Assembly (NCBI RefSeq): GCF_029233945.1
Contig: NZ_JARGOQ010000023.1
Span: forward strand, 1 to 47,027
Source of the DNA: Sneathiella sp.
Lineage (GTDB): Bacteria; Pseudomonadota; Alphaproteobacteria; Sneathiellales; Sneathiellaceae
Direction: 5' to 3'
DNA: 47,027 nt
Shown here: positions 30,959 through 47,027 of the stretch, piece by piece
Layout: each line of letters begins with the position of its first letter
Position numbering within the stretch: position 1 is the first letter of the stretch
The notes under the pieces: generated by a model
Told to the model about the DNA's origin: nothing
The model's input: the letters and a program-made list of their open reading frames with translations, nothing else
Databases searched by the model: none
Program-made: the position numbers and the translations under genes

Positions 30959-31030
30959 GGGAAGGATCAGCCTGCTGATTTATTTTTGCGATTGCTATTT
31001 GCATATAGGATGGGCGATCAAGTTAAAAGT

Positions 31031-32288: not shown

Positions 32289-32307
32289 GGGTAGTTGATT
32301 ATGTGAA

Positions 32308-32351
32308 ATGAAAGGAGCGCATGACCTGTTTCGACCGGACATGCGCTCCTT
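32308..32351 (+). other. 14-bp perfect stem-loop between aapJ and aapQ
   Basis: GAAAGGAGCGCATG (32308-32321) is exactly complementary to CATGCGCTCCTTTC (32338-32351) across a 16-nt loop, 20 bp after the aapJ stop. It has no T-run, so it looks like an RNA structure that protects the 3' end of the aapJ message, or a partial terminator, rather than a classic intrinsic terminator. It would explain higher yield of the binding protein than of the membrane components. Confidence 0.8.
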
Positions 32352-32400
32352 TCGTCTTTCGGCAGCCGTAATCTTAACAATCCCTGGGGAGGTGTAGTTT

Positions 32401-33594: not shown

Positions 33595-33595
33595 G

Positions 33596-34699
33596 ATGGC
33601 TATAGTCAAAACAGAACGCCACGAAGATCTGCCGCCTCCGGTCAGCCAGACCGGTGTGATCGGCTGGATGCGGGAGAATTTATTCTCCAGCCCGCTGAAC
33701 GCGCTTCTGACGGTGGTGTCGATTTATGTAATCTGGGGGGCATTGAGTTCGATCATTTCCTACGCCTTCATCAATGCCAATTTCGTCGGAGAAACCCGGG
33801 AGGATTGCACGGGCACGGGGGCCTGCTGGGTCTTTATCAAGGCCCGCTTTGGCCAGATCATGTACGGCTTTTACCCGGTTGAGGAACGCTGGCGGGTCGA
33901 TGTCGGGTATATCCTCGCGGCGATTGGCCTGTTCCTGGTTTTGTCCGATTTCGTGAAGAACAAGAAATGGCCGGCGATCTATACCTTTGTTGTCGTACCG
34001 ATTGTCTGTTACTTCCTGTTTTACGGCGGTTCTTTCGGCCTGGAAGTCGTGGAAACCTCCCAGTGGGGCGGATTGTTCCTGACCCTGGTGCTGGCGTCGG
34101 TGTCGATCTTTGTCGCCCTGCCGCTCGGCATTGTCCTTGCGCTCGGCCGGCGATCGACCATGCCGATTGTGCGCATGCTCTGCGTCGGTTTTATCGAGTT
34201 TGTGCGCGGAGTGCCGCTGATTACGGTGCTGTTCATGGCCTCGGTCATGCTGCCGTTGTTCCTGCCGGAGGGCATGAACTTCGACAAGCTTATCCGGGCG
34301 CTCGTCGGCATGTCGCTCTTCTCCGCGGCCTATATGGCGGAGGTGGTGCGCGGCGGCTTGCAGGCGATCCCCAAAGGCCAGACAGAGGCGGCAAGTTCGC
34401 TCGGTCTCGGATACTGGAAGGCGATGGGACTGATCGTGTTGCCACAGGCGCTGAAGATTTCCATTCCGTCCATCGTCAACACCTTCATCGGCCTGTTCAA
34501 GGACACGACGCTGGTGTTGATTATTGGACTGCTGGACTTGCTCAGCATCGTCAAGGCAGGAACCACTGATAAGGAATGGGTCGGGATGGCGACCGAAGGC
34601 TATGTCTTCGTTGCGGCTGTCTTCTGGGTCTTCTGCTTCAGTATGTCACGTTATAGCATCTGGTTGGAGAACAAGCTCCATACCGGTCACAAAAGATAG
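33596..34699 (+). CDS. aapM: General L-amino acid ABC transporter permease
   Basis: A 367-residue partner permease of AapQ. Helices start at NALLTVVSIYVIWGALSSII. The HisMQ core has GIVLALGRRSTMPIVRM, EFVRGVPLITVLFMAS and the EAA-loop region GQTEAASSLGLGYWKAMGL followed by IVLPQALKISIPSIVNTFIG. The ATG at 33596 has GGTGGAGAG upstream; translation from an earlier codon in frame is not supported. It lies between aapQ and aapP with minimal spacing, so aapQMP forms one translational unit. Confidence 0.96.
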   Translation: MAIVKTERHEDLPPPVSQTGVIGWMRENLFSSPLNALLTVVSIYVIWGALSSIISYAFINANFVGETREDCTGTGACWVFIKARFGQIMYGFYPVEERWRVDVGYILAAIGLFLVLSDFVKNKKWPAIYTFVVVPIVCYFLFYGGSFGLEVVETSQWGGLFLTLVLASVSIFVALPLGIVLALGRRSTMPIVRMLCVGFIEFVRGVPLITVLFMASVMLPLFLPEGMNFDKLIRALVGMSLFSAAYMAEVVRGGLQAIPKGQTEAASSLGLGYWKAMGLIVLPQALKISIPSIVNTFIGLFKDTTLVLIIGLLDLLSIVKAGTTDKEWVGMATEGYVFVAAVFWVFCFSMSRYSIWLENKLHTGHKR

Positions 34700-34711
34700 G
34701 AGGGCGGAAAG

Positions 34712-35482
34712 ATGAGTGAAGCTGCCATGACCCAGACTGATATCGATGTCGCGATCCAGCTGATCGGGATGCATAAATGGTATGGGGAATTCCATGTCCT
34801 GAAAGACATCAACCTGACGGTGGAGCGGGGAGAAAAAATCGTTGTCTGCGGACCGTCCGGTTCCGGCAAGTCAACGATGATTCGCTGTATCAACCGGCTG
34901 GAGGAGCATCAGCAGGGCCAGATCATCGTCGACGGGATCGAGCTGACCAATGATGTGAAGAAGATCGACGAGATCCGCCGCGAGGTGGGGATGGTCTTCC
35001 AGCATTTCAACCTGTTCCCGCATCTGACGGTTCTGGAAAACTGCACGCTGGCGCCGATCTGGGTCCGCAAGACCCCGAAGGCGGAGGCCGAGGCAACGGC
35101 GATGAAGTTCCTTGAGAGGGTGAAAATCCCCGAGCAGGCGATGAAATATCCGGGGCAGCTTTCCGGCGGCCAGCAGCAGCGCGTGGCGATTGCCCGCTCG
35201 CTCTGCATGAACCCGCGCATCATGCTGTTCGATGAGCCGACATCGGCGCTCGACCCGGAAATGATCTCGGAGGTGCTGGACACCATGATCAGCCTCGCCG
35301 AGGAGGGGATGACGATGATCTGCGTGACCCATGAAATGGGCTTCGCCAAGACCGTCGCCGACCGGGTGCTGTTCATGGACGCCGGGGAAATTATCGAGCA
35401 GGCCCCGCCGCAGGAATTCTTCGAAAACCCGCAAAGCGAACGGACCCAGCTGTTCCTCAGTCAGATCCTCCACAACGGCTGA
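34712..35482 (+). CDS. aapP: General L-amino acid ABC transporter ATP-binding protein
   Basis: A 256-residue ATPase that drives AapQM. Walker A is [14 protein letters not shown] near residue 52, the Q-loop is [13 protein letters not shown], the signature is [15 protein letters not shown] and Walker B is [15 protein letters not shown]. The switch His is in [22 protein letters not shown] gives a strong ribosome binding site. An intrinsic terminator lies 20 bp after the stop, closing the aapJQMP operon. Confidence 0.97.
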
Positions 35483-35501
35483 TAAGCCCTTTAAACAAAA
35501 G

Positions 35502-35534
35502 AAAAATCCCGGTGAGAAATCCCCGGGCTTTTTT
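35502..35534 (+). terminator. Intrinsic terminator of the aap operon
   Basis: CCCGG (35508-35512) pairs with CCGGG (35523-35527). Flanking A5 and T6 tracts extend the stem past a single mismatch and supply the T-run. It lies 20 bp after aapP and can also stop the opposite-strand gene at 35550. Confidence 0.75.
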
Positions 35535-35549
35535 CTATGGGAAGGGCGT

Positions 35550-36365
35550 CTAGCTCCCCGCGTTGAGCGATTTCCAGTATTTTGTATTGAGCTTGCCGAT
35601 CATCCGGTCGTGCCAGCTGCCCAAACAGCCCCGAAAGCTGAGGCTGCCGGCGATGGTGCGGTCGTAGCATTCCTTGACGACGGCGCCCGCGTTATCTTTT
35701 GCGCCGCTCGCAAAGCCGGAGCTCTCGGTAATTTCCTGATGGGTCGCGCGGACGGTGGCGCGTTCCGCATCGCTGGCGCGGCCGCGCCAGGGCAGGCGGT
35801 TGATCGCCTGGCTGATCAGTTCCGCCGCGTCGCGCTTGTTGCTATCCAGATCGACGAGCTGCGTCGCTGCCGCCCGAAGCGGTCCGGTGGCGAGCAGGAT
35901 ATCCTCCTCCGTCTGTGGCTTTACATCCCCCGCGACGGGCAGCGGCACGAGGGAGAGGTTTTCCGGCACGGAGATGCTCACCTCCAGCGGGCCGTATTTG
36001 GTCAGCTGGCTTTCGCGAAAGGCGAGGCGGACCGCGTTATGGCCGCGCGTCGCGGTAATCTCAAGCGGCAGATGGGCGAGGGAGATTTCCTGTCCGGCGG
36101 CGTTGCGGCCTTTAAGGTCGAAGAATTTCTCGCCATGCACATAATAGCCCGCCCCGATATTGGGGGAGGCGCGATGCTCCTGCAAACAGATGGTGGTCAG
36201 CTCAACGGTGCATTCGCCCGCGTCGCAAATCACTGGGAGTTTCAGGTCCGTTGCGGCGACGGCGAGGATCTGCGGCGCGGCAAGCGCGGGCAGGGCGGCC
36301 ATGGCTCCGGCAAGTGACGCCGCGGTAAAAAGGGGAAAGCGTAGTTTTTTGTTCAAGGGCGCCAT
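35550..36365 (-). CDS. Exported protein of unknown function with several cysteines
   Basis: A protein of about 271 residues with no recognised family. A Sec signal peptide is clear: basic MAPLNKKLRF, a hydrophobic core and an ALPALA cleavage site before APQIL. The mature part has cysteines in VICDAGECTVELTTIC (three close together), KECYDR and RGCLGSW, suggesting disulfides in the periplasm. The C-terminal region GCLGSWHDRMIGKLNTKYW looks helical and well ordered. The ATG at 36365 has GGAGG 7 nt upstream; an earlier ATG at 36383 lacks one. It lies 94 bp after the GNAT gene on the same strand and may be a separate transcript. Function unknown. Confidence 0.8.
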   Translation of the reverse strand: MAPLNKKLRFPLFTAASLAGAMAALPALAAPQILAVAATDLKLPVICDAGECTVELTTICLQEHRASPNIGAGYYVHGEKFFDLKGRNAAGQEISLAHLPLEITATRGHNAVRLAFRESQLTKYGPLEVSISVPENLSLVPLPVAGDVKPQTEEDILLATGPLRAAATQLVDLDSNKRDAAELISQAINRLPWRGRASDAERATVRATHQEITESSGFASGAKDNAGAVVKECYDRTIAGSLSFRGCLGSWHDRMIGKLNTKYWKSLNAGS

Positions 36366-36459
36366 TGGAAAACCTCCGCGCATGTCAAACCAGCATATAT
36401 ATCAGGATAAACTGATACGGCGCGCCGGTCAACGCATCTGCGCGGTCACGTCTTCGCGA

Positions 36460-37017
36460 TCAGAGGTCTTCGATGGGGTCGATCTCTATCTCGCGGCGGC
36501 GGACGGGCTCAAACCCGGTGCGCTGATACATGGGCAGGGCCTTCGGATGGTCGAGCGTGCAGGTATTGACGGTGACTTTTTCCGGTTCCTTCACCCAGGC
36601 CTCCTCCAGCGCCCAGTTCAGGAACCAGGGGCCGAGCTTCATTCCGATAAAGTCCGGCATGATGCCGAAATAGGCGACATCGACAGCCGCCGGCAGGTCG
36701 GCGGCATTCAGCTCGACAAAGCCCGCAGGCACCCCCCGGATATAGAGCACATAGACTTCGGTTGTTTCCGCCTGCAGGATTTCTTCAAGCTCCGCATCGG
36801 AAACAAGGCGGCGATCAATCCAGCCCCAGTCGCGCCCGACCGTATCATAGAGATAGCGATAGAAAGAGACCGTCGGCTTCTCCGCGCGGATGATCGCATG
36901 GGGGATGGCGGGCGGCAGCGGCGGGGCGGTATGCTGGCGCTCCGTCATTTCCAGGAAGGTGATGGTCACAGGCCATTTGCCCGTGTGGGTCGGGGTCGGG
37001 GGTCGTTTAAGGGGCAT
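36460..37017 (-). CDS. GNAT family N-acetyltransferase
   Basis: A 185-residue GNAT-fold protein. The acetyl-CoA region is near residues 115-140 (VAYFGIMPDFIGMKLGPWFL, with a degenerate Q/R-x-x-G-x-G/A), and the C-terminal NTCTLDHPKALPMYQRTGFE is the usual beta6/alpha4 motif. The upstream half has RDWGWIDRR and VYVLYIRGVPAGFVEL. The substrate is unknown. Its start is 2 bp after the sseA stop, so it is co-transcribed with the sulfur genes. Confidence 0.9.
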   Translation of the reverse strand: MPLKRPPTPTHTGKWPVTITFLEMTERQHTAPPLPPAIPHAIIRAEKPTVSFYRYLYDTVGRDWGWIDRRLVSDAELEEILQAETTEVYVLYIRGVPAGFVELNAADLPAAVDVAYFGIMPDFIGMKLGPWFLNWALEEAWVKEPEKVTVNTCTLDHPKALPMYQRTGFEPVRRREIEIDPIEDL

Positions 37018-37019
37018 GC

Positions 37020-37877
37020 CTACTTTCCGGTATCGACGGGTAACTCCTCATCGAGAGCCCATTCGGTCCAGGATCCGTCAAAGACGGCGACGCGATGGTG
37101 ACCCAGAAGATGCAGGCCGAACGCCAGGACGCAAGCGGTAATTCCCGATCCACAGGATGTAATCACCGGTTTCTTTAAGTCAATACCGGCACCCTCGAAA
37201 GATGCAGAAAGTTCGGCGGCCGGACGGAAGGTCCTGTCCTCGTCATGGAGCAGCTGCGTGTAGGGCAGGTTTTTCGAGCCTGGAATATGGCCGCTGCGCA
37301 ACCCCTCGCGCGGTTCCGGTTCCGTCCCGTCGAACCGCCCGGCGGAGCGGGCATCGAGGACCTGCTCGCGGCTCTGGCCGATATTGCGGGCGACCTGCTC
37401 CTTCTCGCGCAGCATGAAGCTGTTGATGCGGGAGGTGAAATGCCGCTCGGCGGGCTTGACCGGCATGTCATCGACGGGGCGTCCCTCCGCCTTCCATTTG
37501 GGCAGGCCCCCGTCGAGAATGGCGACATCCTGATGACCGAACAGGCGGAGCAGCCACCAGGCGCGGGCGGCGCTGACCATGCCGAGAGTGTCATAAACGA
37601 CGATCCGGTTGCCATCCCCAAGGCCGAGTTTGCGCATTCGGCTTGAAAATTTTTCCGGGCTTGGCACCATATGGGGGAGCGGGTTGTCGGTGTCGGAAAT
37701 CTCGTCAATATCGAAGAAGATGGCGCCGGGGATATGTTCCGCGTCATATTCCGCCCGCGGATCGCGGTTGGTGGCCGGCATATGCCAGGAGGCATCGACG
37801 ATGCGCACATCGGGGGCGTCGGCATGCTTCGCCAGCCATTCAGTGGAGACAAGAGAGGATGAATTTACATAGGACAT
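37020..37877 (-). CDS. sseA: 3-mercaptopyruvate sulfurtransferase
   Basis: A 285-residue two-domain rhodanese-like enzyme that moves sulfur from 3-mercaptopyruvate to an acceptor such as thioredoxin or cyanide. Catalytic Cys242 sits in ITSCGSGITA; the CGSG(V/I)T loop marks mercaptopyruvate rather than thiosulfate specificity. The inactive N-terminal domain shows VDASWHMPATNRDPRAEY and HIPGAIFFDIDEISD. The second domain has VLDARSAGRFDGTEPEPREG and HIPGSKNLPY. It lies in the order cysK-alaX-sseA-GNAT on one strand, linking cysteine synthesis with sulfur transfer. Confidence 0.95.
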   Translation of the reverse strand: MSYVNSSSLVSTEWLAKHADAPDVRIVDASWHMPATNRDPRAEYDAEHIPGAIFFDIDEISDTDNPLPHMVPSPEKFSSRMRKLGLGDGNRIVVYDTLGMVSAARAWWLLRLFGHQDVAILDGGLPKWKAEGRPVDDMPVKPAERHFTSRINSFMLREKEQVARNIGQSREQVLDARSAGRFDGTEPEPREGLRSGHIPGSKNLPYTQLLHDEDRTFRPAAELSASFEGAGIDLKKPVITSCGSGITACVLAFGLHLLGHHRVAVFDGSWTEWALDEELPVDTGK

Positions 37878-37917
37878 ATTTCTATTTTCACATTTCTTTT
37901 GTGGCTATAGTGTGATT

Positions 37918-38631
37918 TTATTCCGCAAATACTAACGATACCCGCCGGTTTTGCCGACCCTTCTTTTCAATTTTTCTGACCCGGACCGCGCCGATTTCCG
38001 ACGTGTTGCGGACATGGGTCCCGCCGCAGGGCTGCAAATCCACCCCATCGACCTTGATCAGGCGGATGCGCCCGGCGCCGCGCGGCGGCTGTACGGACAT
38101 GGTTTTGACAAGCTCGGGCTTGGCGTCGAGCTCTTCTTCGGAAATCCAGTCGCTGGTCAGCGCGTGGTTCTCATTGATGATCCGGTTGAGTTCCGTCGTG
38201 ATTTCGTCCTTGTCCAGCGTGGCTTCGGGCAGATCGAAATCGAGCCGCCCCTTGCCGTCGGAGACCTGTCCGCCGGTCACCGGATAGGGCAGCACGGCGG
38301 ACAGAAGATGCAGGCAGCTATGCATGCGCATGAGGCGATGGCGGACGTCCCAGTCAATCTCGGCGGTGACACCTGCGCCAACATCGGGGCGGGGGCTTCC
38401 CTCGGCGGGGACATGGACAATCTCGTCCGGGGTCTCCCCCTTGACGGTTGTCGCGATTTCAATCGTCGTCCCGTCCGCGAGGATCAGGCGACCGGAATCG
38501 CCGGGCTGTCCGCCGCCGGTGGGATAGAAGTTGGTCTGGTCGAGAATTATGCCGCCCCGCTCATTGACGCCGGTCACCACCGCCGACGTTCGGGTGAGGT
38601 AAGCGTCGTCGCGAAAGAGGGGTAACGTCAT
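37918..38631 (-). CDS. AlaX-type alanyl-tRNA editing protein
   Basis: A 237-residue free-standing editing enzyme that deacylates mischarged tRNA-Ala (Ser- or Gly-tRNA-Ala). Two zinc motifs are visible: HSCLH (HxxxH, near residue 103) and PCGGTHVRNTSEIG (CxxxH, near residue 190). The N-terminal QTNFYPTGGGQPGD is the usual AlaX/AlaRS-editing start. It contains no synthetase domain. Its stop is 40 bp from the sseA start and its own start is 21 bp after cysK, so it belongs to the cysteine operon. Confidence 0.94.
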   Translation of the reverse strand: MTLPLFRDDAYLTRTSAVVTGVNERGGIILDQTNFYPTGGGQPGDSGRLILADGTTIEIATTVKGETPDEIVHVPAEGSPRPDVGAGVTAEIDWDVRHRLMRMHSCLHLLSAVLPYPVTGGQVSDGKGRLDFDLPEATLDKDEITTELNRIINENHALTSDWISEEELDAKPELVKTMSVQPPRGAGRIRLIKVDGVDLQPCGGTHVRNTSEIGAVRVRKIEKKGRQNRRVSLVFAE

Positions 38632-38652
38632 GGCAGGCTCCGGCTCGGGTTG

Positions 38653-39663
38653 TCAGCTTTTGCCGGTAAGCCAGGGGGCGACCGGCAGGTTCTTTTCTTT
38701 CAGCATATCAATGTCCATCAATTTGCTAAAGTATTTTTGCGCGGTATCGCAGAGAACGGTGACAATCGTGTGACCGGGGCCCATTTCCTTCGCCATGCGG
38801 ATGGCACCGGCGACATTGATGCCGGTGGAAAGGCCCATCTGCAACCCTTCATGGATGTTAAGGTCATAGAGCACGTCGAGCGCCTCGACATCGTCGATCT
38901 GGAACGGCATGTCGATATCGAGACCCTCCAGATTGGCGGTGATGCGGCCCTGACCGATGCCTTCGGTGATCGAGCTGCCCTCGGATTTCATTTCGCCATT
39001 CTTGTAGTAGTTATAGAGCGCCGCGCCCATGGGATCGGCGAGGCCGATCTTGACGCCGGGGTTTTTCGCCCGGAGCGCCGTCGCCACCCCGGCAAGCGTG
39101 CCGCCGCTGCCGACCGCGCAGATAAAGCCGTCGATTTTGCCGTCTGTCTGATCCCAGATTTCCGGGCCCGTGGTGTCGATATGCCCCTGGCGGTTGGCGA
39201 CATTGTCGAACTGGTTGGCCCAGATGGCGCCGCCGGGATGGGTTTTCGCCAGCTCTTCCGCCAGCCGGCCGGAGTATTTGATATAATTATCCGGGTCCTT
39301 GTAGGGCTTCGCCGGGACGAGACGCAGATCCGCACCGCAGTATCTGAGCAGGGCTTTTTTCTCGTCGGTCTGGGTTTCGGGCATGACGATGACGGTCTTG
39401 TAGCCCTTGGCGTTGGCCACGAGCGCGAGGCCGATCCCCGTGTTTCCCGCCGTCCCCTCGACGATCAGCCCGCCGGGTTTCAGCAGGCCCTTCGCCTCGG
39501 CGTCTTTCACAATGGCGAGCGCCGCGCGGTCCTTCACCGATCCGCCGGGATTGAGGAATTCAGCCTTGCCGTAGATGTCACAGCCTGTTGCCTCCGAGGC
39601 GGCGGTCAGGCGGATAAGCGGCGTATTGCCGATGCTGTCGATAAAGTCTTTGCGGATTTCCAT
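38653..39663 (-). CDS. cysK: Cysteine synthase A (O-acetylserine sulfhydrylase)
   Basis: A 336-residue PLP enzyme that makes cysteine from O-acetylserine and sulfide. The PLP lysine is Lys44 in NPGGSVKDRAAL, the substrate loop EGTAGNTGIGLALVA follows, then PLP-phosphate loop CAVGSGGTLAGVATAL. The length is about 20 residues longer than E. coli CysK, as in many alphaproteobacterial homologues with a different middle section (YKDPDNYIKYSGRLAEELA). Its substrate comes from CysE encoded at 20.6 kb. It heads the cysK-alaX-sseA-GNAT operon. Confidence 0.94.
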   Translation of the reverse strand: MEIRKDFIDSIGNTPLIRLTAASEATGCDIYGKAEFLNPGGSVKDRAALAIVKDAEAKGLLKPGGLIVEGTAGNTGIGLALVANAKGYKTVIVMPETQTDEKKALLRYCGADLRLVPAKPYKDPDNYIKYSGRLAEELAKTHPGGAIWANQFDNVANRQGHIDTTGPEIWDQTDGKIDGFICAVGSGGTLAGVATALRAKNPGVKIGLADPMGAALYNYYKNGEMKSEGSSITEGIGQGRITANLEGLDIDMPFQIDDVEALDVLYDLNIHEGLQMGLSTGINVAGAIRMAKEMGPGHTIVTVLCDTAQKYFSKLMDIDMLKEKNLPVAPWLTGKS

Positions 39664-39813
39664 GAGGTGCTCTGTAGTTCTTTGTTATTACCATTGTATT
39701 ACTGTTAATCTGGCAATTTACCTTGGAAGCGTCAAGCGTTGTCGGGGAAATAAATTCCGGACCCTTTGCCGGGCGGGATTTGCACCCTGCCGACGCAGTT
39801 TGAATTCTAACTA

Positions 39814-39842
39814 TTGACGAAATAAATAGAATGTTTTACACT
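39814..39842 (+). promoter_or_regulatory. Candidate promoter in the AT-rich gap before the phage genes
   Basis: TTGACG (39814-39819) and TACACT (39837-39842) are spaced by 17 bp, with TATAAA just beyond. The interval 39664-40091 is markedly AT-rich, has no convincing gene, and marks the junction between chromosomal genes and the phage-type genes. Confidence 0.5.
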
Positions 39843-40091
39843 ATAAATAGAATTAATATTATGACAAAGCCGCATTTGTAATTATTATGATATGTGAGTT
39901 CGTACTGTTTCTTCATTTTTTCCCAACCAACCATACCATTCTTTTTACGCGCGGCGCGTCGGTCTCCGAAGCATATATTTGCGCATTTGCATTTCCGACT
40001 ACTTCCACGGCACCACAGGAACGGCAGAATGCCCTCCGTGGCTGGATTACGAGTAACGCAACAAATCAGCATTATATGATGGAGAGGAACA

Positions 40092-40601
40092 ATGACATCC
40101 AAACAGACTGATGTTCGCACGGTGCAGGAAACTCCTTTGGTGCCGCAATCGACGGATCACAACGTCATGCCGGCCCCCGGTGACAGGAGGGCAAGAATAC
40201 GACCCCGGCCCTGTGCCAATCCTTCGGGCAGACTTAGAAAGACAGAGAACAAGGCGCGGGAACCACGCCTGTTTTCCATGCTGACGGACGATCAGATCCG
40301 GGTCGCGGAACTGATCGCGCGGGGCTTTCATTTGCGCACGGCGGGCCTCGGCATGCGAACGCAGACCTATTGCTGGCAACCGCCGGGCACCGGCAATACG
40401 GAGGACTGGTTGTTCGATGTGATGCGCCGCTTTACGCGCTGGGCAGTGGCGGTGCAGGAGGCGGGGCTATCTCTCGCCGCTGTGCTTGATGTGATTGTTT
40501 TCGGGCAGAGTTGCCGGGCTGTGGACCGGGCGCGGCGCAAGCGAAACGGATATGCGCGCGCGCAAATTCTGGACGCCCTGGAACTCTACGGGAAAATCTA
40601 A
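40092..40601 (+). CDS. Phage-associated protein of unknown function (possible regulator)
   Basis: A 169-residue protein that I cannot assign. The first 55 residues are polar and Arg-rich (GDRRARIRPRPC and RLRKTENKAREPR). The rest looks helical: LTDDQIRVAELIARGFHLRT resembles the start of a helix-turn-helix segment, followed by DWLFDVMRRFTRWAVAVQEA and a basic end with DRARRKRNGYARAQ. A GGAGAGGAACA ribosome binding site is present. Its place just ahead of the terminase genes is where many tailed phages carry a late-gene activator or antiterminator (RinA/ArpU/Q-like position), but no motif proves that. A direct-repeat copy starts at its stop codon. Confidence 0.6.
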   Translation: MTSKQTDVRTVQETPLVPQSTDHNVMPAPGDRRARIRPRPCANPSGRLRKTENKAREPRLFSMLTDDQIRVAELIARGFHLRTAGLGMRTQTYCWQPPGTGNTEDWLFDVMRRFTRWAVAVQEAGLSLAAVLDVIVFGQSCRAVDRARRKRNGYARAQILDALELYGKI

Positions 40602-40624
40602 AAACACTTACTGATAGAAAATAC
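40600..40624 (+). repeat. Direct repeat copy 1 before the terminase genes
   Basis: AAAAACACTTACTGATAGAA followed by AATAC begins at the stop codon of the gene at 40092. It is nearly identical to a copy at 40828-40851, differing at a few positions and by one A. Confidence 0.7.
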
Positions 40625-40822
40625 TTGACTGTACGGGAACATTACTTTATTCTAATTGCCATAGTCGGAAAATGGGTCCATGGAAATGAAAGTATTTCTG
40701 TGGGCCTTTCTTTTTGTAAATTTTCCAACAAAAACAACAGATAAATTCATGAATCCGGGATATAAATCCTGAGAGGAGGAAATCTTTTCTGGCTGAAACG
40801 CCTCAATGGCGAATTTGATCCG

Positions 40823-40851
40823 GGTGTAAAAACACCTAATGATAGAAATAC
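40823..40851 (+). repeat. Direct repeat copy 2, with a hairpin, before the small terminase gene
   Basis: AAAAACACCTAATGATAGAA (40828-40847, continuing ATAC) matches the copy at 40600. It overlaps a small hairpin GGTGT-AAAA-ACACC (40823-40836). The interval between the copies, about 200 bp, is AT-rich. It contains an AGAGGAGGA sequence at 40772-40780 with no start codon at the usual distance, and no firm gene. Confidence 0.65.
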
Positions 40852-40883
40852 ATCGTATTTATCAAAAATTTGAGGCTTCTGGA

Positions 40884-41285
40884 ATGACGACCATCGATCT
40901 GCTGAAATCGGCCCTTCATAACAAAATCTGGCGCCGCAATGCCGCCCTGCCACTGCTGGAGGATATCAAGCAGGCGGGGCGGATCAACGATATCGTCGCG
41001 CTGCTGGGATCGGTCTTCCAGAAGAAGGAGGAGGAGACCATCCGCCGCTTCGTCGCCGATGTGTTTGCCGGGGAAATTCTCGAAATCGCCGATGGCGCCA
41101 ATGACAACGGAGAGGAAGCGGAGCCAAAGGAGGACATCGCCCGCTCCAAGCTGCGGATCGATACGCGCAAATGGCTGATGGCGCATTTCGCGCCCGCGCA
41201 ATATGGCGACGGCGCGGCCAATGACAAGGGCAAGCGCAGCTTCCTGCCGCCGCGTCTGTATTTGCCGGAAAATGGCCGTGATTAA
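40884..41285 (+). CDS. Phage terminase small subunit
   Basis: A DNA-recognition subunit of the packaging motor, about 133 residues. The C-terminal motif SKLRIDTRKWLMAHFAPAQY followed by GDG is a hallmark of one small-terminase family in tailed phages of Proteobacteria. Residues 1-60 are helical (LLKSALHNKIWRRNAALPLL). ATG 40884 has GAGG 8 nt upstream; the longer in-frame ATG at 40839 lies in the repeat and has no ribosome binding site. The 3' end overlaps the large subunit by 14 nt. Confidence 0.82.
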   Translation: MTTIDLLKSALHNKIWRRNAALPLLEDIKQAGRINDIVALLGSVFQKKEEETIRRFVADVFAGEILEIADGANDNGEEAEPKEDIARSKLRIDTRKWLMAHFAPAQYGDGAANDKGKRSFLPPRLYLPENGRD

Positions 41286-42618
41286 ACCCCAACCGGGCCC
41301 GCAGGAAATGTTCCTTGGCACCGCTGCCGATATCGCCATCTATGGCGGCGCGGCGGGCGGCGGCAAGAGCTTTGCCCTGCTGATGGAGCCGCTCCGTCAT
41401 GTGGTGCAGGGGGAATTCAAGGCCGTCATCTTCCGCCGCACCTCGAAGCAGGTGAAGAATGAGGGCGGGCTCTGGGATGCGTCCGCCGCGCTTTACGGCA
41501 CCCTCGGCGGGCAGGCGAAGGAGAGCGAGCTTGCCTGGAAATTCCCGAGCGGGGCGTCGATCAGCTTTGGCCATCTGGAGCATGAGAAGAACAAATATGA
41601 CTGGCAGGGATCGGAACTTGCCTTCATCGGCTTTGACGAGCTGACCCATTTCACCGAGAGCCAGTTCTTCTATCTGTTGAGCCGTAACCGCTCCACCGGG
41701 CGGGCGCGGCCCTATGTGCGGGGAACCTGCAACCCCGATGCGGACAGCTGGGTCGCCGATTTTATCCGCTGGTGGCTCGACCCGGAGACGGGCTATCCGA
41801 TTCCGGCGCGGTCGGGCCAGCTCCGCTGGTTCGTCCGCAGCGAGGACAATCTCGTCTGGGGCGATGACAAGGCAGCGTTGGAGGCGGCACATCCGGGACA
41901 AGTCGCGAAGTCGGTGACCTTTATCGCCGCCTCGATCGAGGATAACCGGGTGCTGATGGAGCGGGATCCGGGCTATCGCGCCAATCTCGCCGCGCTTTCC
42001 ACGGTGGATCGCGAACGGCTGTTGAAGGGCAACTGGAAAATCCGCCCCGCCGCGGGCGCCTATTTTCGCCGGAGCTGGTTTCCGGTTGTCACGGCCGCGC
42101 CGCTGGAGGCGCGACGGGTGCGCGGCTGGGATCTGGCGGCGAGCCAAAAAGAAGCCGGGGTCTCGCCCGACTGGACCGTTGGGGCGCGGCTTGCCCGGGA
42201 CACGGGCGGGGTCTTCTATGTCGAGCATGTGGAGCGGTTGCAGGGCACGCCGAACGAGGTCGATCGCACCATCTATAATCTCGCGGGCAGTGACGGGCGG
42301 GAGACGGAGATTGCGCTGCCGCAGGATCCGGGGCAGGCGGGCAAGGCGCAAAAACTGGCGCTCGTCCGGCTGCTGGCGGGCTTCCGGGTGAAAAGCCAGC
42401 CGGTGACGGGCAGCAAGATCGTCCGGGCCATGCCTTTTTCGTCGCAGGCCGAGGCGGGGAATGTCAAGCTGGTCGAGGGGCCGTGGAACGCGGCATTTCT
42501 CACTGAGCTGGAGAATTTCCCCACCGGCCGCCATGACGATCAGGTCGATGCGGTGTGCGAGGCGTTTAATGCGCTCACCCAAGTTTCACAGAAATCACAA
42601 CGGGATATGTACTCATGA
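41272..42618 (+). CDS. Phage terminase large subunit
   Basis: A 448-residue packaging ATPase and nuclease. The P-loop is YGGAAGGGKSFALL near residue 25, Walker B is FIGFDELTHF and the coupling motif is GTCNPD. The RNase-H-like nuclease has GWDLAAS near residue 282 and the late acidic motif RHDDQVDAVCEAF. All catalytic residues appear intact. ATG 41272 is used; GTG 41278 is possible. It overlaps the small subunit upstream, and the portal gene downstream by 4 nt (ATGA). Confidence 0.95.
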   Translation: MAVIKPQPGPQEMFLGTAADIAIYGGAAGGGKSFALLMEPLRHVVQGEFKAVIFRRTSKQVKNEGGLWDASAALYGTLGGQAKESELAWKFPSGASISFGHLEHEKNKYDWQGSELAFIGFDELTHFTESQFFYLLSRNRSTGRARPYVRGTCNPDADSWVADFIRWWLDPETGYPIPARSGQLRWFVRSEDNLVWGDDKAALEAAHPGQVAKSVTFIAASIEDNRVLMERDPGYRANLAALSTVDRERLLKGNWKIRPAAGAYFRRSWFPVVTAAPLEARRVRGWDLAASQKEAGVSPDWTVGARLARDTGGVFYVEHVERLQGTPNEVDRTIYNLAGSDGRETEIALPQDPGQAGKAQKLALVRLLAGFRVKSQPVTGSKIVRAMPFSSQAEAGNVKLVEGPWNAAFLTELENFPTGRHDDQVDAVCEAFNALTQVSQKSQRDMYS

Positions 42619-43937
42619 TCGATCCTTCCACTTCCTCCCAGCTGTATGATGCGATGGCGACGCGCTGGGCGCTGCCCAAAGCGCTGATGGGCGGGACGCT
42701 GGCCATGCGGGCGGCGGGCACGCGCTATCTGCCGCGCCACCCGGCGGAAAACAGCGCCATCTATACGGAGCGGGCGAGCCGCTCGGTGCTGCGCAATCAT
42801 TTCCGCCGCACGGTAACAAAGCTTGTGGGCCGCATCTTTGCGGAACCCTTGATTATATCCGAGGATATGCCGGGCGAACTGGTGGCAATTTTGCGCAATA
42901 TCGATCTTGTGGGGCGGGGCCTGAATGTCTTCGCCCGCGACTGGTTCGAGGATGCGATGGTTTCCGGCCTGTCCCATGTGCTGGTGGATTTCCCGGCGGC
43001 GGCGGGCGGTCAGTCCCTGGCCGAGGAACGCGAGCGCGGCGCGCGGCCCTATGCGGTGCATATCCGCGCCGATCAGCTGATTGCGGCGCAATGGGACAGC
43101 CGGGGCGGCGACAAGGTGTTGACCCAGATCCGCATCCGCGAGAAAGCGCTCCGCTATCACGGGTTTGAGGAGCGGGAGGAAGAGCAGATCCGGGTGATCG
43201 AGCCCGACCGCTGGCGTCTCTACCGGCAGGATAAAAAAGGCGTCTGGCAGGAGGTGGAGGCGGGGGAGAATACCCTCGGCCGCATCCCGCTCGTCACCCT
43301 GTACACCGCGCGGACGGGCTTTTTGCAAGCCGAGCCGCCGCTTGAGGATTTGGCCTTCCTCAATCTGGAGCATTACCAGATCAGATCGGATCAGCGCAAC
43401 GCCCTCAATGTCGCGTCCTTCCCGATTTTGGCGGCGAGCGGTTATAATCCGGAGATCGACGGCCCGATCGAGGTCGGCCCCAACAAGGTGCTGACCACCA
43501 GCGAGAGCGAGGGCAAATATTACTATGTGGAAAGCTCCGGCGCGGCGCTGGAGGCGGGCGCGCGGGAGTTGGAGGCATTGGAGAAAGCCATGCTCTTGTT
43601 CGGCCTGCAATTTGAAACGCCAAAAGAGAGGGAGACGGCAACGGGTCGGGCGCTGGATGCCGCCGATGCGCTCTCTCCGCTATCCGCCATGGCGATGAAT
43701 CTGGAGGATAGCCTCAACGCCATGCTGTCGCTGTTTGCGGGCTGGCTGGAAATGCCGCTCACCGGCAGTATCGGCGTCAGCACCAAATCGGGCGCGGCGC
43801 AAAATAGCGCGCGCGATCTTGATTTCCTTCTGGAGGCGCGGCGCCTCGGCGATGTGAGCGGGGAGGAGCTGATCCGCGAAGCGAAGGCGCGCGGGCTTCT
43901 CTCCGACAGTCTCAAGGTGAACGCCGCCGCAAAATAA
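42615..43937 (+). CDS. Phage portal-like protein (DUF4055)
   Basis: A 440-residue protein of the DUF4055 family, a group of tailed-phage portal proteins forming the DNA gateway of the head. A typical start is MGGTLAMRAAGTRYLP and ENSAIYTERASRSVLRNHF. The middle has GLSHVLVDFPAA and LVTLYTARTGFL followed by PPLEDLAFLNLEHYQIRSD, and the C-terminus carries a helical stretch with LEDSLNAMLSLFAGWL. Size, and position between the terminase and scaffold genes, fit a portal. No frameshift is seen. A terminator hairpin follows 30 bp after its stop. Confidence 0.87.
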   Translation: MIDPSTSSQLYDAMATRWALPKALMGGTLAMRAAGTRYLPRHPAENSAIYTERASRSVLRNHFRRTVTKLVGRIFAEPLIISEDMPGELVAILRNIDLVGRGLNVFARDWFEDAMVSGLSHVLVDFPAAAGGQSLAEERERGARPYAVHIRADQLIAAQWDSRGGDKVLTQIRIREKALRYHGFEEREEEQIRVIEPDRWRLYRQDKKGVWQEVEAGENTLGRIPLVTLYTARTGFLQAEPPLEDLAFLNLEHYQIRSDQRNALNVASFPILAASGYNPEIDGPIEVGPNKVLTTSESEGKYYYVESSGAALEAGARELEALEKAMLLFGLQFETPKERETATGRALDAADALSPLSAMAMNLEDSLNAMLSLFAGWLEMPLTGSIGVSTKSGAAQNSARDLDFLLEARRLGDVSGEELIREAKARGLLSDSLKVNAAAK

Positions 43938-43967
43938 CTGTTTCGAAATTTTATGTCATCCATCAGG

Positions 43968-43988
43968 GCCCCGTTTCGGGGCTTTTTT
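43968..43988 (+). terminator. Intrinsic terminator between portal and scaffold genes
   Basis: GCCCCG (43968-43973), TTT loop, CGGGGC (43977-43982) and T6 (43983-43988) form a textbook terminator, located inside the phage head operon and only 13 bp before the next start codon. Confidence 0.85.
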
Positions 43989-44001
43989 ATTGAGGTTTTC
44001 C

Positions 44002-44706
44002 ATGTTTGATTTTCCCAATGACGTGACCGATCTAAACGCGGTGCCGGAGCCGTATCGCGGGCTCTACCAACCGGGGGAGGAGGGTTTCACGCTCAATCCC
44101 GTGCTTGCCGAGAAGCTGGATGTGTCCGGCCTGCTCTCGGCGCTGGAGAAGGAGCGCGGCAATGCGCAAGCCTTTGAAAAAGAGCTGAAAGCCTGGCAGG
44201 CGCTCGGTCCCGATCCCGAGACCGCCTGGGCCGACAGGCAGAAGGCGCTTACCGCGGAATTTACCGAACAGTTTGACACGCTCCTGACCGCGAAAGACGC
44301 TGAGATTGCCCGCCTTAAAGAGCTGAACGCCGACTTCCTGATCACGACCCGCGCGACGGAGGCCCTGTTCAAGGCGGGGGGCAGTGTCGAATTGCTGATG
44401 CCGCATATCCGCGCGGCCGTCACCTTGATTGAGGAAGAGGGCGCACCGGTCTTGCGAATAATGGATACCGATGGCTCCTTCCGGGAGACGGCGGAAGGGG
44501 TGGCCATGACGGTGGAAGATCTGGTGGCGGAGATGCGGAGCTCCCCCGTTTTTGCCCGCGCCTTCAACCCGACCGGCAGCAAGGGGAGCGGCATGGACCC
44601 GAGCGGGGTTCCCGTCAATCTCGCCACCATCAATGGACAGAACCAATGGGCGCTGAATGCCCGGATCGAGGATATCGCCGCCGGGAAGGTGTCGGTCTCC
44701 CTGTAA
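44002..44706 (+). CDS. Phage scaffold-like protein
   Basis: A 234-residue acidic protein directly ahead of the coat gene. Early PEPYRGLYQPGEEGFTL is typical of capsid scaffold proteins of this phage type. Residues 45-125 form an Ala/Glu/Leu-rich helical region (LLSALEKERGNAQAFEKELK), and a C-terminal helix follows. No protease motif (Ser-Lys or Ser-His dyad) is evident. ATG 44002 has TGAGG upstream; a longer TTG start is not supported. It is separated from the portal gene by a terminator. Confidence 0.72.
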   Translation: MFDFPNDVTDLNAVPEPYRGLYQPGEEGFTLNPVLAEKLDVSGLLSALEKERGNAQAFEKELKAWQALGPDPETAWADRQKALTAEFTEQFDTLLTAKDAEIARLKELNADFLITTRATEALFKAGGSVELLMPHIRAAVTLIEEEGAPVLRIMDTDGSFRETAEGVAMTVEDLVAEMRSSPVFARAFNPTGSKGSGMDPSGVPVNLATINGQNQWALNARIEDIAAGKVSVSL

Positions 44707-44787
44707 AGTCCCAAGTCCGCGCGAGGCGGCAAAGGCCCGGGATGGGCTTCTTCGAACTCATAACCCCTCATTTTGGAGACTACGAAA

Positions 44788-45918
44788 ATGGCAAATGATA
44801 TCTCGGCCGCCATGCCGAAAATTCTGGCGCGTGGCCTGATGGCCCTGCGCGAGCAGACCGTGATGCCCCGCCTTGTCAATGGTGATTTCAGCGCCGACGC
44901 GGCGCAGAAGGGCGACACCATCGATGTGATCCTGCCCTCGGATCTCACGGCGGATGACGTGACGCCGGGCACCACCCCACCAACGCCCACCAGCTCGACC
45001 CTGGAGAAAGTGCAGATCGAGCTTTCCAACTGGAAGAAGGCCGATTTCTATCTCACCGATAAGGAGATGATGGAGGTCGAGGCACGCGAAAACTTCATGC
45101 CCGTGCAGGCGAGTGCCGCCATCCGCGCGCTGGCGAATGCCGTCAACCAGTCGATCCATGCCAAATATACCGGCATTTTCGGCCTCGTCGGCACGGCGGG
45201 CGTGACGCCTTTTGCGAGCGATGCCAGTTCCGCGACGGCGGCGCGCAAGCTTCTGATGGAGCAGAAGGCGCCCAAGGAATTCCGCTATGGCGTGCTCGAT
45301 TTCGATGCGGAATCGAACGCGCTCGATCTCGCGGCCTTTGCCGATGCGGACCGGGCAGGCAGCAGCTCCGCCAAGATCGAAGGCGAGATCGGTCGCAAAT
45401 ACGGCATCGACTGGTACAGCGATGATCATGTCGCCACCCATGTCACCGGGGCGGAAGGCACCCCGCTGGTGGACGGCGGATCGCAGACGGGCTCGACGCT
45501 CATCGCCGACGGTTTCACCACCAAGCCGTCCGTCGGTGATATCTTCACCATCGACGGCGATACCCAGCAATATGCGGTGCTGGCGGCGACGGAGCTCTCG
45601 AGTACGGAATCGACCCTCACCATCTCCCCGGCGATTACCTCCGCCCCTGCGGATAACGCGGCAATGACCTTCGTCGATGATCATGTGGTCAATCTGGTGT
45701 TCAACCGTGACGCCTTCGCCTTCGCCAACCGGCCGCTGGCCCACAGTACGCAGGACATGGGGCTCGGCAGCCAGATCCTGTCGATGACCGATCCGGCGAC
45801 GGGCATCTCGCTGCGCCTGGAAGTCTCGCGCCAGTACAAGCAGGTGGTCTGGGAGTTCGACATCCTCTGGGGTGTCGCGCTGGTCCGCCCGGAACTGGCG
45901 GTCCGTCTCGCTGGCTGA
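44788..45918 (+). CDS. P22-like major capsid protein
   Basis: A 376-residue coat protein of the P22 gp5 family (HK97 fold). It begins MANDISAAMPKILARGLMAL and contains LSNWKKADFYLTDKEMMEVE and AANAVNQSIH-type spine-helix sequence. An inserted Ig-like I-domain is present at about residues 215-295 (GFTTKPSVGDIFTIDGDTQQ). The C-terminal SLRLEVSRQYKQVVWEFDIL and GVALVRPELAVRLAG are characteristic. A GGAGA ribosome binding site precedes ATG 44788. A strong terminator follows the stop. Confidence 0.93.
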   Translation: MANDISAAMPKILARGLMALREQTVMPRLVNGDFSADAAQKGDTIDVILPSDLTADDVTPGTTPPTPTSSTLEKVQIELSNWKKADFYLTDKEMMEVEARENFMPVQASAAIRALANAVNQSIHAKYTGIFGLVGTAGVTPFASDASSATAARKLLMEQKAPKEFRYGVLDFDAESNALDLAAFADADRAGSSSAKIEGEIGRKYGIDWYSDDHVATHVTGAEGTPLVDGGSQTGSTLIADGFTTKPSVGDIFTIDGDTQQYAVLAATELSSTESTLTISPAITSAPADNAAMTFVDDHVVNLVFNRDAFAFANRPLAHSTQDMGLGSQILSMTDPATGISLRLEVSRQYKQVVWEFDILWGVALVRPELAVRLAG

Positions 45919-45925
45919 CCGGACC

Positions 45926-45960
45926 GGGGAGCGGTGCGAACTGTCGCCGCTCCCCTTTTT
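45926..45960 (+). terminator. Intrinsic terminator after the coat gene
   Basis: GGGGAGCGG (45926-45934) pairs with CCGCTCCCC (45947-45955) across a 12-nt loop, followed by T5 (45956-45960). It lies immediately after the coat stop codon and upstream of more head genes on the same strand. Confidence 0.9.
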
Positions 45961-45986
45961 CTAAACGCATTAGCAGGAACACATCC

Positions 45987-46457
45987 ATGACCTTGATAAC
46001 CGAAACCGGCAGCGGCGTGGCGGGCGCGACGACATATGTCTCGCTGGCTGAGGCGGACAGCCATTTCACCGCGCTCGCCAATGACGACTGGACCAGCGCC
46101 CCGGAAGGACAGCGCGAACAGGCGCTGATCCGGGCGGCCCTGCATATCGACAGCTATCTCTATCCCGGGATGGTGCTGGACTGGGATCAGGGCCTCAAAT
46201 GGCCGAGGAGCAGTGCCTATGACCGGGACGGGCGGGCCATGACGGGGATCCCCCACGCGCTTCGGACCGCCGCGTTGGAGCTTGCCGATATTTTCCTGCG
46301 TGACCCGGCGGGCCTTGATGAACGGCGCATTGCGCGCCAGAAGATCGGCCCGATTGAGGTGTCTTACGAGGAGGGAAAGAAGCGCATGAGCTTTATCTTC
46401 CGCCTGCTGCAACAGATCGGCGCGCGCGTCGCCGACAGCCAGATGATCCGGGGGTGA
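45987..46457 (+). CDS. Phage DnaT-like head-tail connector protein
   Basis: A 156-residue protein of the family annotated as putative DnaT-like ssDNA-binding protein, found between coat and tail genes and thought to be a head-completion adaptor. TYVSLAEADSHFTAL and the helical REQALIRAALHIDSYLYPGM followed by GLKWPRSSAYD are the family pattern. The C-terminal KIGPIEVSYEEGKKRM is also usual. It starts 27 bp after the terminator. The DNA-binding label comes from family naming, not from experiment. Confidence 0.82.
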   Translation: MTLITETGSGVAGATTYVSLAEADSHFTALANDDWTSAPEGQREQALIRAALHIDSYLYPGMVLDWDQGLKWPRSSAYDRDGRAMTGIPHALRTAALELADIFLRDPAGLDERRIARQKIGPIEVSYEEGKKRMSFIFRLLQQIGARVADSQMIRG

Positions 46458-46460
46458 GCC

Positions 46461-46820
46461 ATGCGCAATGACACAATCCGGCAGATGGTGCGCGATCTCT
46501 TCGATACCATCGGCGAGGTGGCACTGAGCGCCACGCTCCGCCAGAAGACACAAGGCGATTATGAGCCCGGCAGCGGGGCGGCGGAGACGACGAGCGATAC
46601 CTCGATCCGGCTGGTTCGGACGGAAAAAAGCCTGAGCGAGGCCCACAACGCCACCGGCACGCCGATTAACCCGTCGCTGCATCACGCGCTGATCGAATGC
46701 GAGGATGTAACGCCGAAGGCTGACGATGACCTGATCATCGGCGCGGAAACATTCACCCTGTTGCAGGCGGTCGCGGTCGATACCGGCGCAGGCATTCTCT
46801 ATGAGGTGAGCTACCAATGA
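46461..46820 (+). CDS. Phage head-closure or tail-connector protein
   Basis: A 119-residue protein in the position of head-closure proteins. It has a short N-terminal helix and then a beta-rich part with VEC-type strands (HHALIECEDVTPKADDDLII) and TLLQAVAVDTGAGILYEVSY, which resembles small stopper proteins. No family name is certain. It starts 3 bp after the preceding stop and overlaps the next ORF by 4 nt (ATGA). Confidence 0.7.
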   Translation: MRNDTIRQMVRDLFDTIGEVALSATLRQKTQGDYEPGSGAAETTSDTSIRLVRTEKSLSEAHNATGTPINPSLHHALIECEDVTPKADDDLIIGAETFTLLQAVAVDTGAGILYEVSYQ

Positions 46821-47027
46821 GCTATCGCAAAATTCAGGCGGCGCTGGACGCGCGGCTTCAGGCCTATCAATCCGACGATGTGGCCTTTCCGGGCGCACCC
46901 TATCACCCCGCCCATGGCAAGAGCTATCTGGAGGTCGCCTTCCTGCCCGCCCCGGCGGAGGGGATATTTTTAGGATCCGGCGCGGTCGAGCTGCATACCG
47001 GCGCGTACCGCATCACCGTCCATGACG
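46817..47027 (+). CDS. Phage tail terminator-like protein (cut by window edge)
   Basis: The first 70 codons of an ORF that runs out of the window. The product begins MSYRKIQAALDARLQAYQSD, then VAFPGAPYHPAHGKSYLEV, a pattern matching DUF4128, a family of tail terminator or completion proteins that caps the tail tube. Its start overlaps the previous stop. It shows that the tail module continues to the right. Confidence 0.72.
   Translation, partial: MSYRKIQAALDARLQAYQSDDVAFPGAPYHPAHGKSYLEVAFLPAPAEGIFLGSGAVELHTGAYRITVHD

Follow-up and report, generated by a model that had tools for sequence, protein, structure and literature searches.

Conserved terminators around the scaffold and coat genes of a GTA-like element in Sneathiella, and a candidate antitermination switch

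The scaffold and coat genes of a phage-like cluster in the DNA of a marine Sneathiella sp. are enclosed by two hairpins which, judged from the comparison of sequences across genomes, are real terminators and have been kept in evolution. They lie in a window of 47,027 nucleotides (the whole stretch of contig NZ_JARGOQ010000023.1 that was analysed), and all features located below are on its plus strand. In the reading that we prefer and regard as probable, both hairpins are intrinsic terminators within one long late operon of a GTA-like element, where read-through depends on the protein encoded by ORF40092.

Results

The operon in the window comprises genes for the small terminase subunit (40839-41285; phrog_1482, PF20901), the large terminase subunit (41203-42618 as the listed reading frame, whose start is perhaps further in; phrog_979, PF03237, PF17289), the portal (42615-43937; phrog_145), the scaffold (44002-44706; phrog_206), a major coat protein of P22 type (44788-45918; phrog_283, PF11651), the head-tail adaptor Ad1 (45987-46457; phrog_477) and the head closure protein Hc1 (46461-46820; phrog_161). 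A previous sequence-only reading had named portal, scaffold, coat and connectors, and the family matches bear these identities out.

The terminator between portal and scaffold (43965-43985) reads AGGGCCCCG-TTT-CGGGGCTTT followed by TTTATT and folds at -14.3 kcal/mol (z -2.3, with 4 of 200 shuffles equally good), and the hairpin between coat and adaptor (45926-45955; GGGGAGCGGTG...CGCCGCTCCCC, then TTTTTCT) folds at -24.2 kcal/mol (z -4.2). The two are top-ranked among the terminator-like sites of positions 30000-47027. Since the total of such sites in that region is not unusual (23 on both strands against 15.8, sd 4.4, in shuffled sequences), the case is carried by the strength, position and conservation of these two hairpins. 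At the portal-scaffold junction a hairpin with at least four T is present in 14 of 15 Sneathiella genomes, G019 being the one without it; at the coat-adaptor junction the hairpin is found in 14 of 14, followed by at least four T in ten and by a weak U-tract in four. The sequence-only reading had placed terminators at precisely these two junctions, and this part of it stands. Stem letters differ between the genomes and pairing is kept: arms pair with their own partner at 1.00, but with arms from other genomes at 0.73 (portal-scaffold) and 0.56 (coat-adaptor). The conserved terminators share junctions and sense strand across the elements scanned. Among 23 dereplicated viral relatives, 22 possess a GC-rich hairpin 3' of the coat gene, 15 of them with at least four T, compared with 114 (hairpin) and 10 (at least four T) of 920 random windows from the same viral loci.

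The scan returned weaker sense-strand sites at further places, for example at the junction of hc1 and the tape-measure gene in eight elements, that of the window included, and at orf116 in three. Antisense terminator-like sites occur inside genes too, and other sites lie elsewhere in the operon.

The post-coat hairpin fits partial stopping of polymerase and likewise protection of a 3' end. Its retention without a U-tract in 4 of 14 Sneathiella genomes and in 7 of the 22 hairpin-bearing viral relatives would suit a different explanation, in which this hairpin, and perhaps that between portal and scaffold, would chiefly form or protect mRNA ends, or would be a leaky terminator tuning the dosage of coat against connectors, no special factor being needed for read-through. 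We hold this to be possible but rather unlikely, as the U-tract between portal and scaffold is kept in 14 of 15 genomes and a further terminator, the first of the operon, is placed behind a promoter of antitermination type (see below). Under ORF40092-dependent read-through, too, the post-coat hairpin may stop some polymerase or shield the end of the coat mRNA, and either effect, we propose, would leave more coat than connectors. It is possible that the box around scaffold and coat gives the coat a separate level; a stop ahead of the scaffold gene would lower, not raise, the output of scaffold and coat.

The leader of the coat gene carries two hairpins of its own: CCGC-GCGAG-GCGG at 44717-44729, which has a GGA triloop in some relatives, and a second at 44733-44749, with its GGA triloop at 44740-44742, 48 nt 5' of the coat start. 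At least one GGN-triloop hairpin was found in 29 of 36 coat leaders (those left of 68 after removal of near-identical ones), and these hairpins are common to the Sneathiella element and distant marine phages. As the leader alone is not unusually stable in the fold test (z -0.02), the case for it rests on motif and covariation. Rfam gave no match in the window at the gathering threshold and none up to E 1 in ten viral loci, and we found no such element in the literature searched.

The element, a cluster of about 17 kb, starts close to one particular host gene in 17 genomes. In all 17 with that flank, a divergent cysK lies upstream, at a distance of 0.4-2.6 kb in 15 and farther off in G005 (6.2 kb) and G009 (12.7 kb). 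Host and element distances are strongly correlated (r 0.969; Mantel 0/10000), and the two trees have 6 of 9 splits in common, where 5000 label shuffles never gave more than 3. Three element splits are absent from the host tree, two of them strong (0.98, 0.94) where the host splits are weak, and the host pair G020+G022 (support 1.0) is missing from the element tree. The trees comprise the 12 genomes in which the six host genes and the four element genes were all present (left out of the 20 read: G001, G002, G004, G005, G007, G009, G013 and G014); the six host genes are the element's neighbours, so that the agreement is also compatible with transfer of the whole region. Purifying selection is indicated by dN/dS, which is 0.03-0.27 in four pairs of close genomes.

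Damage to the element was seen in four genomes: the head genes are lost in G001 and G005, the coat frame is broken in G009, and G014 has a stop codon in terL. Such deletions and broken genes could indicate a defective prophage in decay, serving no function today, that was fixed by chance in the ancestor of the genus. This we judge to be unlikely, because dN/dS of the structural genes compared is 0.03-0.19 (with the exception of one lip220 pair at 0.21), terL is detected in 21 of 24 Sneathiella genomes, and the promoter pattern is retained.

The promoter in question, TTGACT-17-TATTCT at 40625-40653, is found in 19 of 19 aligned genomes, with a 17-nt spacer in 17. Within the spacer lies the box cGGGrwY (40634-40640), a candidate binding element for the ORF40092 protein, whose GGG is invariant in all 17 promoters with the 17-nt spacer; among the 21 Sneathiella genomes readable at this place, 20 have a promoter with a conserved GGG box between -35 and -10 behind an ORF40092-type gene. 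The box is missing at the relative of ORF40092 in the element of G007, and also at a second, distant relative elsewhere in the genome of G020 (L081). At the predicted transcription start there is a -10-like CATAGT (40660-40665), a candidate sigma-dependent pause, of which the C, A and T of CANNNT are invariant in 17 aligned sequences. Close 3' of the promoter stands the first terminator (40674-40707; -21.0 kcal/mol, z -5.1). At several junctions of ORF40092 and terS an exact-stem search settled on the wrong hairpin or on a short one (14 of 19 with at least four T) and is unreliable there, so we used a scan allowing one mismatch, which found the first terminator in 12 of 13 elements. Both this terminator and the promoter at 40625 had been missed by the sequence-only reading. 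Near-consensus -35 and -10 elements with GGG between them, a CANNNT where transcription should begin and a terminator behind it: as a predicted arrangement, this has the layout of Q/AlpA/GafZ antitermination. The full promoter pattern, itself derived from the alignment of these late promoters, matches once per genome, at this locus only, in 17 of 24 Sneathiella genomes, and the reversed pattern used as control gave no match. With a single match per genome where it is found, the target is unambiguous.

Expression of the boxed genes had been thought to need antitermination or internal promoters. The promoter layout gives the former good support. As to the latter, strong examples of which would have told against an antiterminator, a -35/-10 scan of the plus strand from 40600 to 46000 matched only the promoter at 40625, and in 11 further elements the same scan found no internal promoter common to all near scaffold and coat. 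Scattered matches in those elements included TTCCCA/TATGAT inside the portal gene, 555-589 nt 5' of the scaffold, in G020, G022 and G015, and single matches close to the scaffold start in G012; these scans thus lend no support to internal promoters.

ORF40092 (40092-40601) encodes 169 amino acids, and relatives occur in 22 of 24 Sneathiella genomes. Its N-terminal tail, predicted with low confidence, is Arg/Lys-rich by eye, and its C-terminus has a predicted helix-turn-helix (HTH) fold like that of sigma region 4 (best Z 6.9), a common fold for which Z values of 6-7 are middling. No family in Pfam, PHROG or NCBIfam matched the protein, and no relative was found among 50,697 phage records; its profile gave two meaningless hits and no credible sequence match among PDB chains, and a Foldseek search with the predicted fold yielded nothing at E 0.001. 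In a second fold comparison a chain of a QLambda complex appeared at Z 2.9 and was not counted, sigma region 4 ranking first. The model of DUF6456 (PF20057), the family to which GafZ belongs, scores in Caulobacter but in none of 24 Sneathiella genomes at E 0.001, and a direct comparison of the ORF40092 and DUF6456 profiles was weak and at most suggestive (probability 4.7%, with a score of 23.7 where the highest of 200 column shuffles reached 21.4). Directly 5' of the ORF40092 relative, 8 of 17 genomes carry a small divergent repressor-like HTH regulator, and the one of these eight that was tested had weak PHROG repressor hits.

We regard ORF40092 as a candidate antiterminator that matches no known one in sequence. 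The sequence-only reading had pointed to this protein in that capacity, and the suggestion is well supported by the GGG-box promoter that follows the gene in 20 of 21 genomes and from the terminator hairpin in 12 of 13 elements, as the conserved layout of Q/AlpA/GafZ type backs an antiterminator role. The fold resembling sigma region 4 and the position of the conserved box within the promoter might speak for a protein that activates the late promoter or serves it like a sigma factor, with terminators acting on stray transcripts only. We consider this improbable: a promoter so close to consensus, its spacer measuring 17 nt in 17 of 19 genomes, should need little help, and such a role leaves unexplained both a terminator within about 60 nt and the -10-like CANNNT, invariant in 17 sequences.

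Discussion

If the ORF40092 protein is an antiterminator, the late operon would be transcribed from the promoter at 40625-40653, and the protein would contact the GGG box via its sigma-4-like HTH and join RNA polymerase while this is paused at CANNNT. The polymerase thus modified would ignore the first terminator and then those between portal and scaffold and between coat and adaptor. With the protein the operon would be read through; in its absence, head and tail genes would remain silent, because leaking polymerase would be halted at up to three points.

For the Caulobacter GTA, PMC11150451 reports a GafZ element between -10 and -35, read-through of terminators, a sigma-factor-like HTH in GafZ and an in-operon terminator that is passed only with the antiterminator. 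The Sneathiella system is alike in its GTA-like structural operon, in the candidate element between -35 and -10, in terminators inside the operon and in the predicted sigma-like HTH; moreover, RogA represses the activator genes in Caulobacter, and 8 of 17 Sneathiella genomes have a repressor-like gene next to ORF40092. The Caulobacter system further has GafY, an IHF site and 150-bp repeats of terGTA. The two differ in the -35, which is degenerate in CcGTA (PMC11150451) and near consensus in Sneathiella, and in head type. AlpA of Pseudomonas aeruginosa (PMC9371919) likewise acts with an element between -10 and -35, a -10-like CACGAT pause and an intrinsic terminator, and has a C-terminal HTH, as predicted for ORF40092. 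The layout of promoter element, -10-like pause sequence at the start of the transcribed region and early intrinsic terminator is shared with the Q proteins of lambda, 21 and 82 as well (PMC9371919, PMC6606751). Unlike AlpA and Q, ORF40092 precedes a GTA-like element, and its profile has no credible sequence match in the PDB.

Among P22-type-coat siphophages, HK639 has a depositor-annotated terminator directly 5' of the gene preceding the coat and, by eye, a hairpin 3' of the coat as in the Sneathiella element. Vibrio phage MAR10 also has a hairpin 3' of the coat, but differs in a terminator between scaffold and coat that is followed by a promoter-like TTGACG...TATAAT. In contrast to the Sneathiella element, both are free phages.

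With RcGTA-like elements (Rhodogtaviriformidae) the cluster shares vertical inheritance and the families of the tail tip, for which TIGR02217 and TIGR02218 scored above, and GTA_megatron and RcGTA_tape below, the cut-off. RcGTA-type tail families occur in ordinary phages too. The RcGTA head has an HK97-type coat, whereas the Sneathiella coat is of P22 type (PF11651, phrog_283), and terminase, portal and scaffold are of phage families. In Kogay 2019 (PMC6821227), 0% of its two Sneathiellales OTUs had RcGTA-like clusters. GTAs are characterised in PMC9662315 as endogenized, mostly vertically inherited and co-diversifying with the host, and these attributes are found in the Sneathiella element, the host genes compared being the flanking ones. 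GTA particles package random host DNA, their own genome being too large, and deliver DNA to other cells (PMC9662315).

GTAs are not known to carry genes for self-mobility (integrase, replication), and none were detected among the proteins searched (8 from the window, 12 from G003, where about 1.2 kb of the element was not covered directly, and 4 from G012). We disfavour, and think very unlikely, the alternative of an ordinary temperate prophage that has integrated repeatedly at one locus and of which the cluster would be the late half: phage-like head and tail genes, the viral classification of such contigs in IMG/VR and the repressor-like regulator in 8 of 17 genomes are in keeping with it, but the searched proteins include neither an integrase nor a replication family, a comparison of the left 500-840 nt with the right 900 nt in four genomes showed no direct repeat of at least 11 bp, and the single locus, the host-like tree, the host-type genes (by eye) in the longer gaps to cysK of G009 and G005 and the remnants at the same locus all argue against it. 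The inducible prophage implied by the sequence-only reading gives way to a cluster vertically inherited at one locus across the genus; an inherited, GTA-like element with a P22-type head and an RcGTA-type tail tip, not a mobile prophage, is likely on the evidence of its genes and locus.

The element is apparently undescribed, no description having been found in the literature searched (open-licence papers only). That it adds at once a new GTA lineage (P22 head, RcGTA tail tip), a new antiterminator family with a single site of action in each genome and a new RNA element in the coat leader that helps to control the coat gene and occurs in distant marine phages too, we suggest tentatively, short of an even chance. 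If the preferred reading, read-through dependent on ORF40092, is true, antitermination control of GTAs would not be peculiar to GafZ and Caulobacter, as it would be exerted by another protein in another GTA-like lineage, and this would argue that a lethal domesticated phage operon needs a tight read-through switch. Box, pause and terminator would then form a single testable switch of 80 bp.

Terminators around the scaffold and coat genes

The sequence-only reading had placed one terminator between the portal and scaffold genes and a second after the coat gene, within a run of genes on a single strand, and this observation is confirmed: both hairpins were found on the forward strand, at 43965-43985 (portal|scaffold) and 45926-45955 (after coat), and both fold better than shuffled sequences (z -2.3 and -4.2, respectively). 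Terminator-like matches are not unusually numerous in this region, 23 compared with 15.8 in shuffles (sd 4.4), and therefore conservation was tested.

The portal|scaffold hairpin is followed by at least four T in 14 of the 15 Sneathiella genomes having that junction (the exception is G019), and a hairpin at coat|adaptor occurs in 14/14, with at least four T in 10. Stem letters vary between genomes, and arms pair with their own partners at 1.00, versus 0.73 (portal|scaffold) and 0.56 (coat|adaptor) when arms are swapped. A second scan, covering both strands of 13 elements, gave sense-strand terminators behind ORF40092 in 12/13; of 12 elements with both portal and scaffold, 11 have one at that junction, and coat|adaptor has one in 9/12. 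Weaker sense sites lie at hc1|tape measure (8 elements), at orf116 (3) and within the tail hub gene (several), while antisense terminator-like sites fall nearly all within genes.

Relatives sought by coat protein in IMG/VR comprised 55 loci. Among 23 dereplicated viral relatives, 22 carry a GC-rich hairpin at most 110 nt past the coat stop, 15 of them with at least four T, against 114 and 10 of 920 random windows, respectively. The post-coat hairpin is retained even where the U-tract is lost, in Sneathiella as well as in the viral relatives. The record of coliphage HK639 annotates a terminator immediately 5' of the gene preceding coat, and in Vibrio phage MAR10 (locus L152, 2293-2503) the scaffold|coat gap holds, as judged by eye, a terminator and then a sigma-70-like promoter-like site. 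Because such stops are conserved in Sneathiella and in the viral relatives, with similar arrangements in HK639 and MAR10, their placement around scaffold and coat is a long-standing trait of P22-type head modules and not exotic.

The late promoter and a candidate antiterminator

Downstream of the 40092 gene lies a forward-strand promoter, TTGACT-17-TATTCT (40625-40653), followed by a third terminator (40674-40707, forward strand). Promoters from 19 genomes were aligned, 17 of them with a 17-nt spacer; in these 17, GGG is invariant within the spacer and its neighbourhood, cGGGrwY..T, is conserved, while the rest of the spacer varies, and the start region has an invariant CANNNT followed by a hairpin. 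GGG is kept in G005 and in the 18-nt spacers of G011 and G023, and is absent at the G007 promoter. The full pattern, derived from this same alignment, has a single genome-wide match in 17/24 genomes, every one at the late promoter; the reversed pattern has none in the 24.

In PMC9371919, the layout for AlpA of Pseudomonas aeruginosa (an element between -10 and -35, a -10-like CACGAT and an intrinsic terminator) is the same as in the Sneathiella late promoter, and that described for Q proteins corresponds as well; PMC11150451 gives the same layout for GafZ of the Caulobacter GTA, without the pause.

The proposal that the 40092 protein is an antiterminator is, given the conserved order of promoter, box, CANNNT and terminator, better founded than the bare sequence had allowed. 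Relatives of this protein occur in 23 of 142 genomes, 22 of these among the 24 of the genus, and Sneathiella accounts for six of the eight named genome records that contain one; no relative was found among phage records. Searches with the protein and its alignment members returned no family in Pfam, PHROGs or NCBIfam. In an AlphaFold2 model the C-terminal part is confident from about residue 58, following a low-confidence N-terminal tail, and is similar in fold to sigma region 4 (Z up to 6.9, top matches mostly sigma factors), though a Z in this range can reflect a common arrangement. A profile comparison with DUF6456, which has model matches in Caulobacter and which we take to be the family of GafZ, gave a collinear alignment of 102 columns with E 0.0085 yet a probability of 4.7%; 0/200 column-shuffled decoys attained its score. 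A remote kinship with GafZ is possible; DUF6456 itself matched in 0/24 Sneathiella genomes.

We propose that in the uninduced state polymerase from the late promoter would halt at 40674, and that polymerases leaking past it would be halted again before scaffold and after coat. ORF40092 would load at the box during the pause and let polymerase read through all terminators. The portal|scaffold terminator would then be a safeguard, because a stop 5' of scaffold cannot raise coat, and the post-coat hairpin may additionally define the end of a coat-rich mRNA.

Hairpins in the coat leader

Between scaffold and coat (44704-44787) the window has two small hairpins (44717-44749), one with a GGN triloop and one with a different loop. 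Many phages with P22-type coats have tandem GGN-triloop hairpins upstream of the coat start, at a distance of roughly 40-80 nt and with about 20 nt from loop to loop (e.g. L011, L013, L016, L017, L024, L031 and L046). Of 36 dereplicated leaders, 29 have at least one such hairpin (at least 5 bp) and 18 have two, compared with two in 22/1440 random windows; it is absent from seven (G004, G009, G011, G012, G015, L050, L051), and in G019 it lies at the ribosome-binding site. In 236,623 bp from 23 viral loci, tandem pairs occur 14 times at most 110 nt before coat, twice elsewhere on the plus strand and never on the minus strand. Stem positions 2-5 show at least five pair types each, with GG constant, a count that depends on the search itself, since only pairing stems were counted. 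Ten of the loci were compared with Rfam and gave no match at E values up to 1. The hairpin element may act as a translational operator of the coat gene.

Setting and inheritance of the element

The host cysteine-synthase gene cysK, named from its sequence (38653-39663), lies upstream and divergent of the element, as in 17/17 genomes with that flank, at a distance of 0.4-0.7 kb in eight, 1.2-1.7 kb in six, 2.6 kb in G020, 6.2 kb in G005 and 12.7 kb in G009; in the last two the gap holds host-like genes, as judged by eye. An IMG/VR contig of locus L002 called viral, L082, is probably chromosomal despite that label, because Sneathiella cysK stands at its left end. Immediately 5' of the ORF40092 relative, 8 of 17 genomes (G005, G007, G009, G011, G012, G015, G019, G023) have a small divergent, repressor-like HTH regulator (L101 783-1364, minus strand; L107 843-1409; L109 153-800; L112 397-903), with weak PHROG repressor matches in G012; it is absent from this position in the window's clade. 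The G003 cluster, about 17.3 kb long, ends on the right before a LysE-like gene, a neighbour also found in G021, G018 (fragment), G001, G020 and G022. A class-3 lipase-like gene (PF01764; L098 6262-6921) lies near the cluster end in several species.

The element encodes terminases, portal, scaffold, P22-type coat, adaptors, tail terminator, a 246-aa tape measure and a tail tip. Tail-tip families shared with RcGTA, also found in phages, score above cut-off (TIGR02217, TIGR02218) or below it (GTA_megatron, RcGTA_tape). None of the element proteins searched matched an integrase or replication family; for about 1.2 kb of G003 the search used G012 proteins of the corresponding regions. On contig C1 (6165 and 15139; locus L081), G020 carries a further ORF40092 relative, remote at 30% identity, and some 9 kb downstream of it a P22-type coat gene that is likewise remote (35%); the two may mark a separate prophage of the ancestral type.

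In 12 genomes, 6/9 splits are common to the element tree and a host tree of six upstream neighbours (label shuffles: mean 0.12, maximum 3 in 5000), and the correlation between element and host distances is 0.969 (Mantel, 0 of 10000), results also compatible with transfer of the whole region. Four pairwise comparisons within a set of four close genomes gave dN/dS values of 0.03-0.27. A close, single-copy terL is present in 21/24 genomes; the three lacking it are two genomes of about 65% completeness and the complete genome G005, which lacks coat as well. In S. chungangensis (G001, L093) an internal deletion fuses the portal start to a tail-fibre-like gene, and the flanks, regulator gene, terminase genes and promoter box are still carried; the coat frame is broken in G009, and G014 has one stop within terL. 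On this genomic evidence, we read the setting of the terminators as a vertically inherited, putatively GTA-like cluster, mostly kept, with losses.
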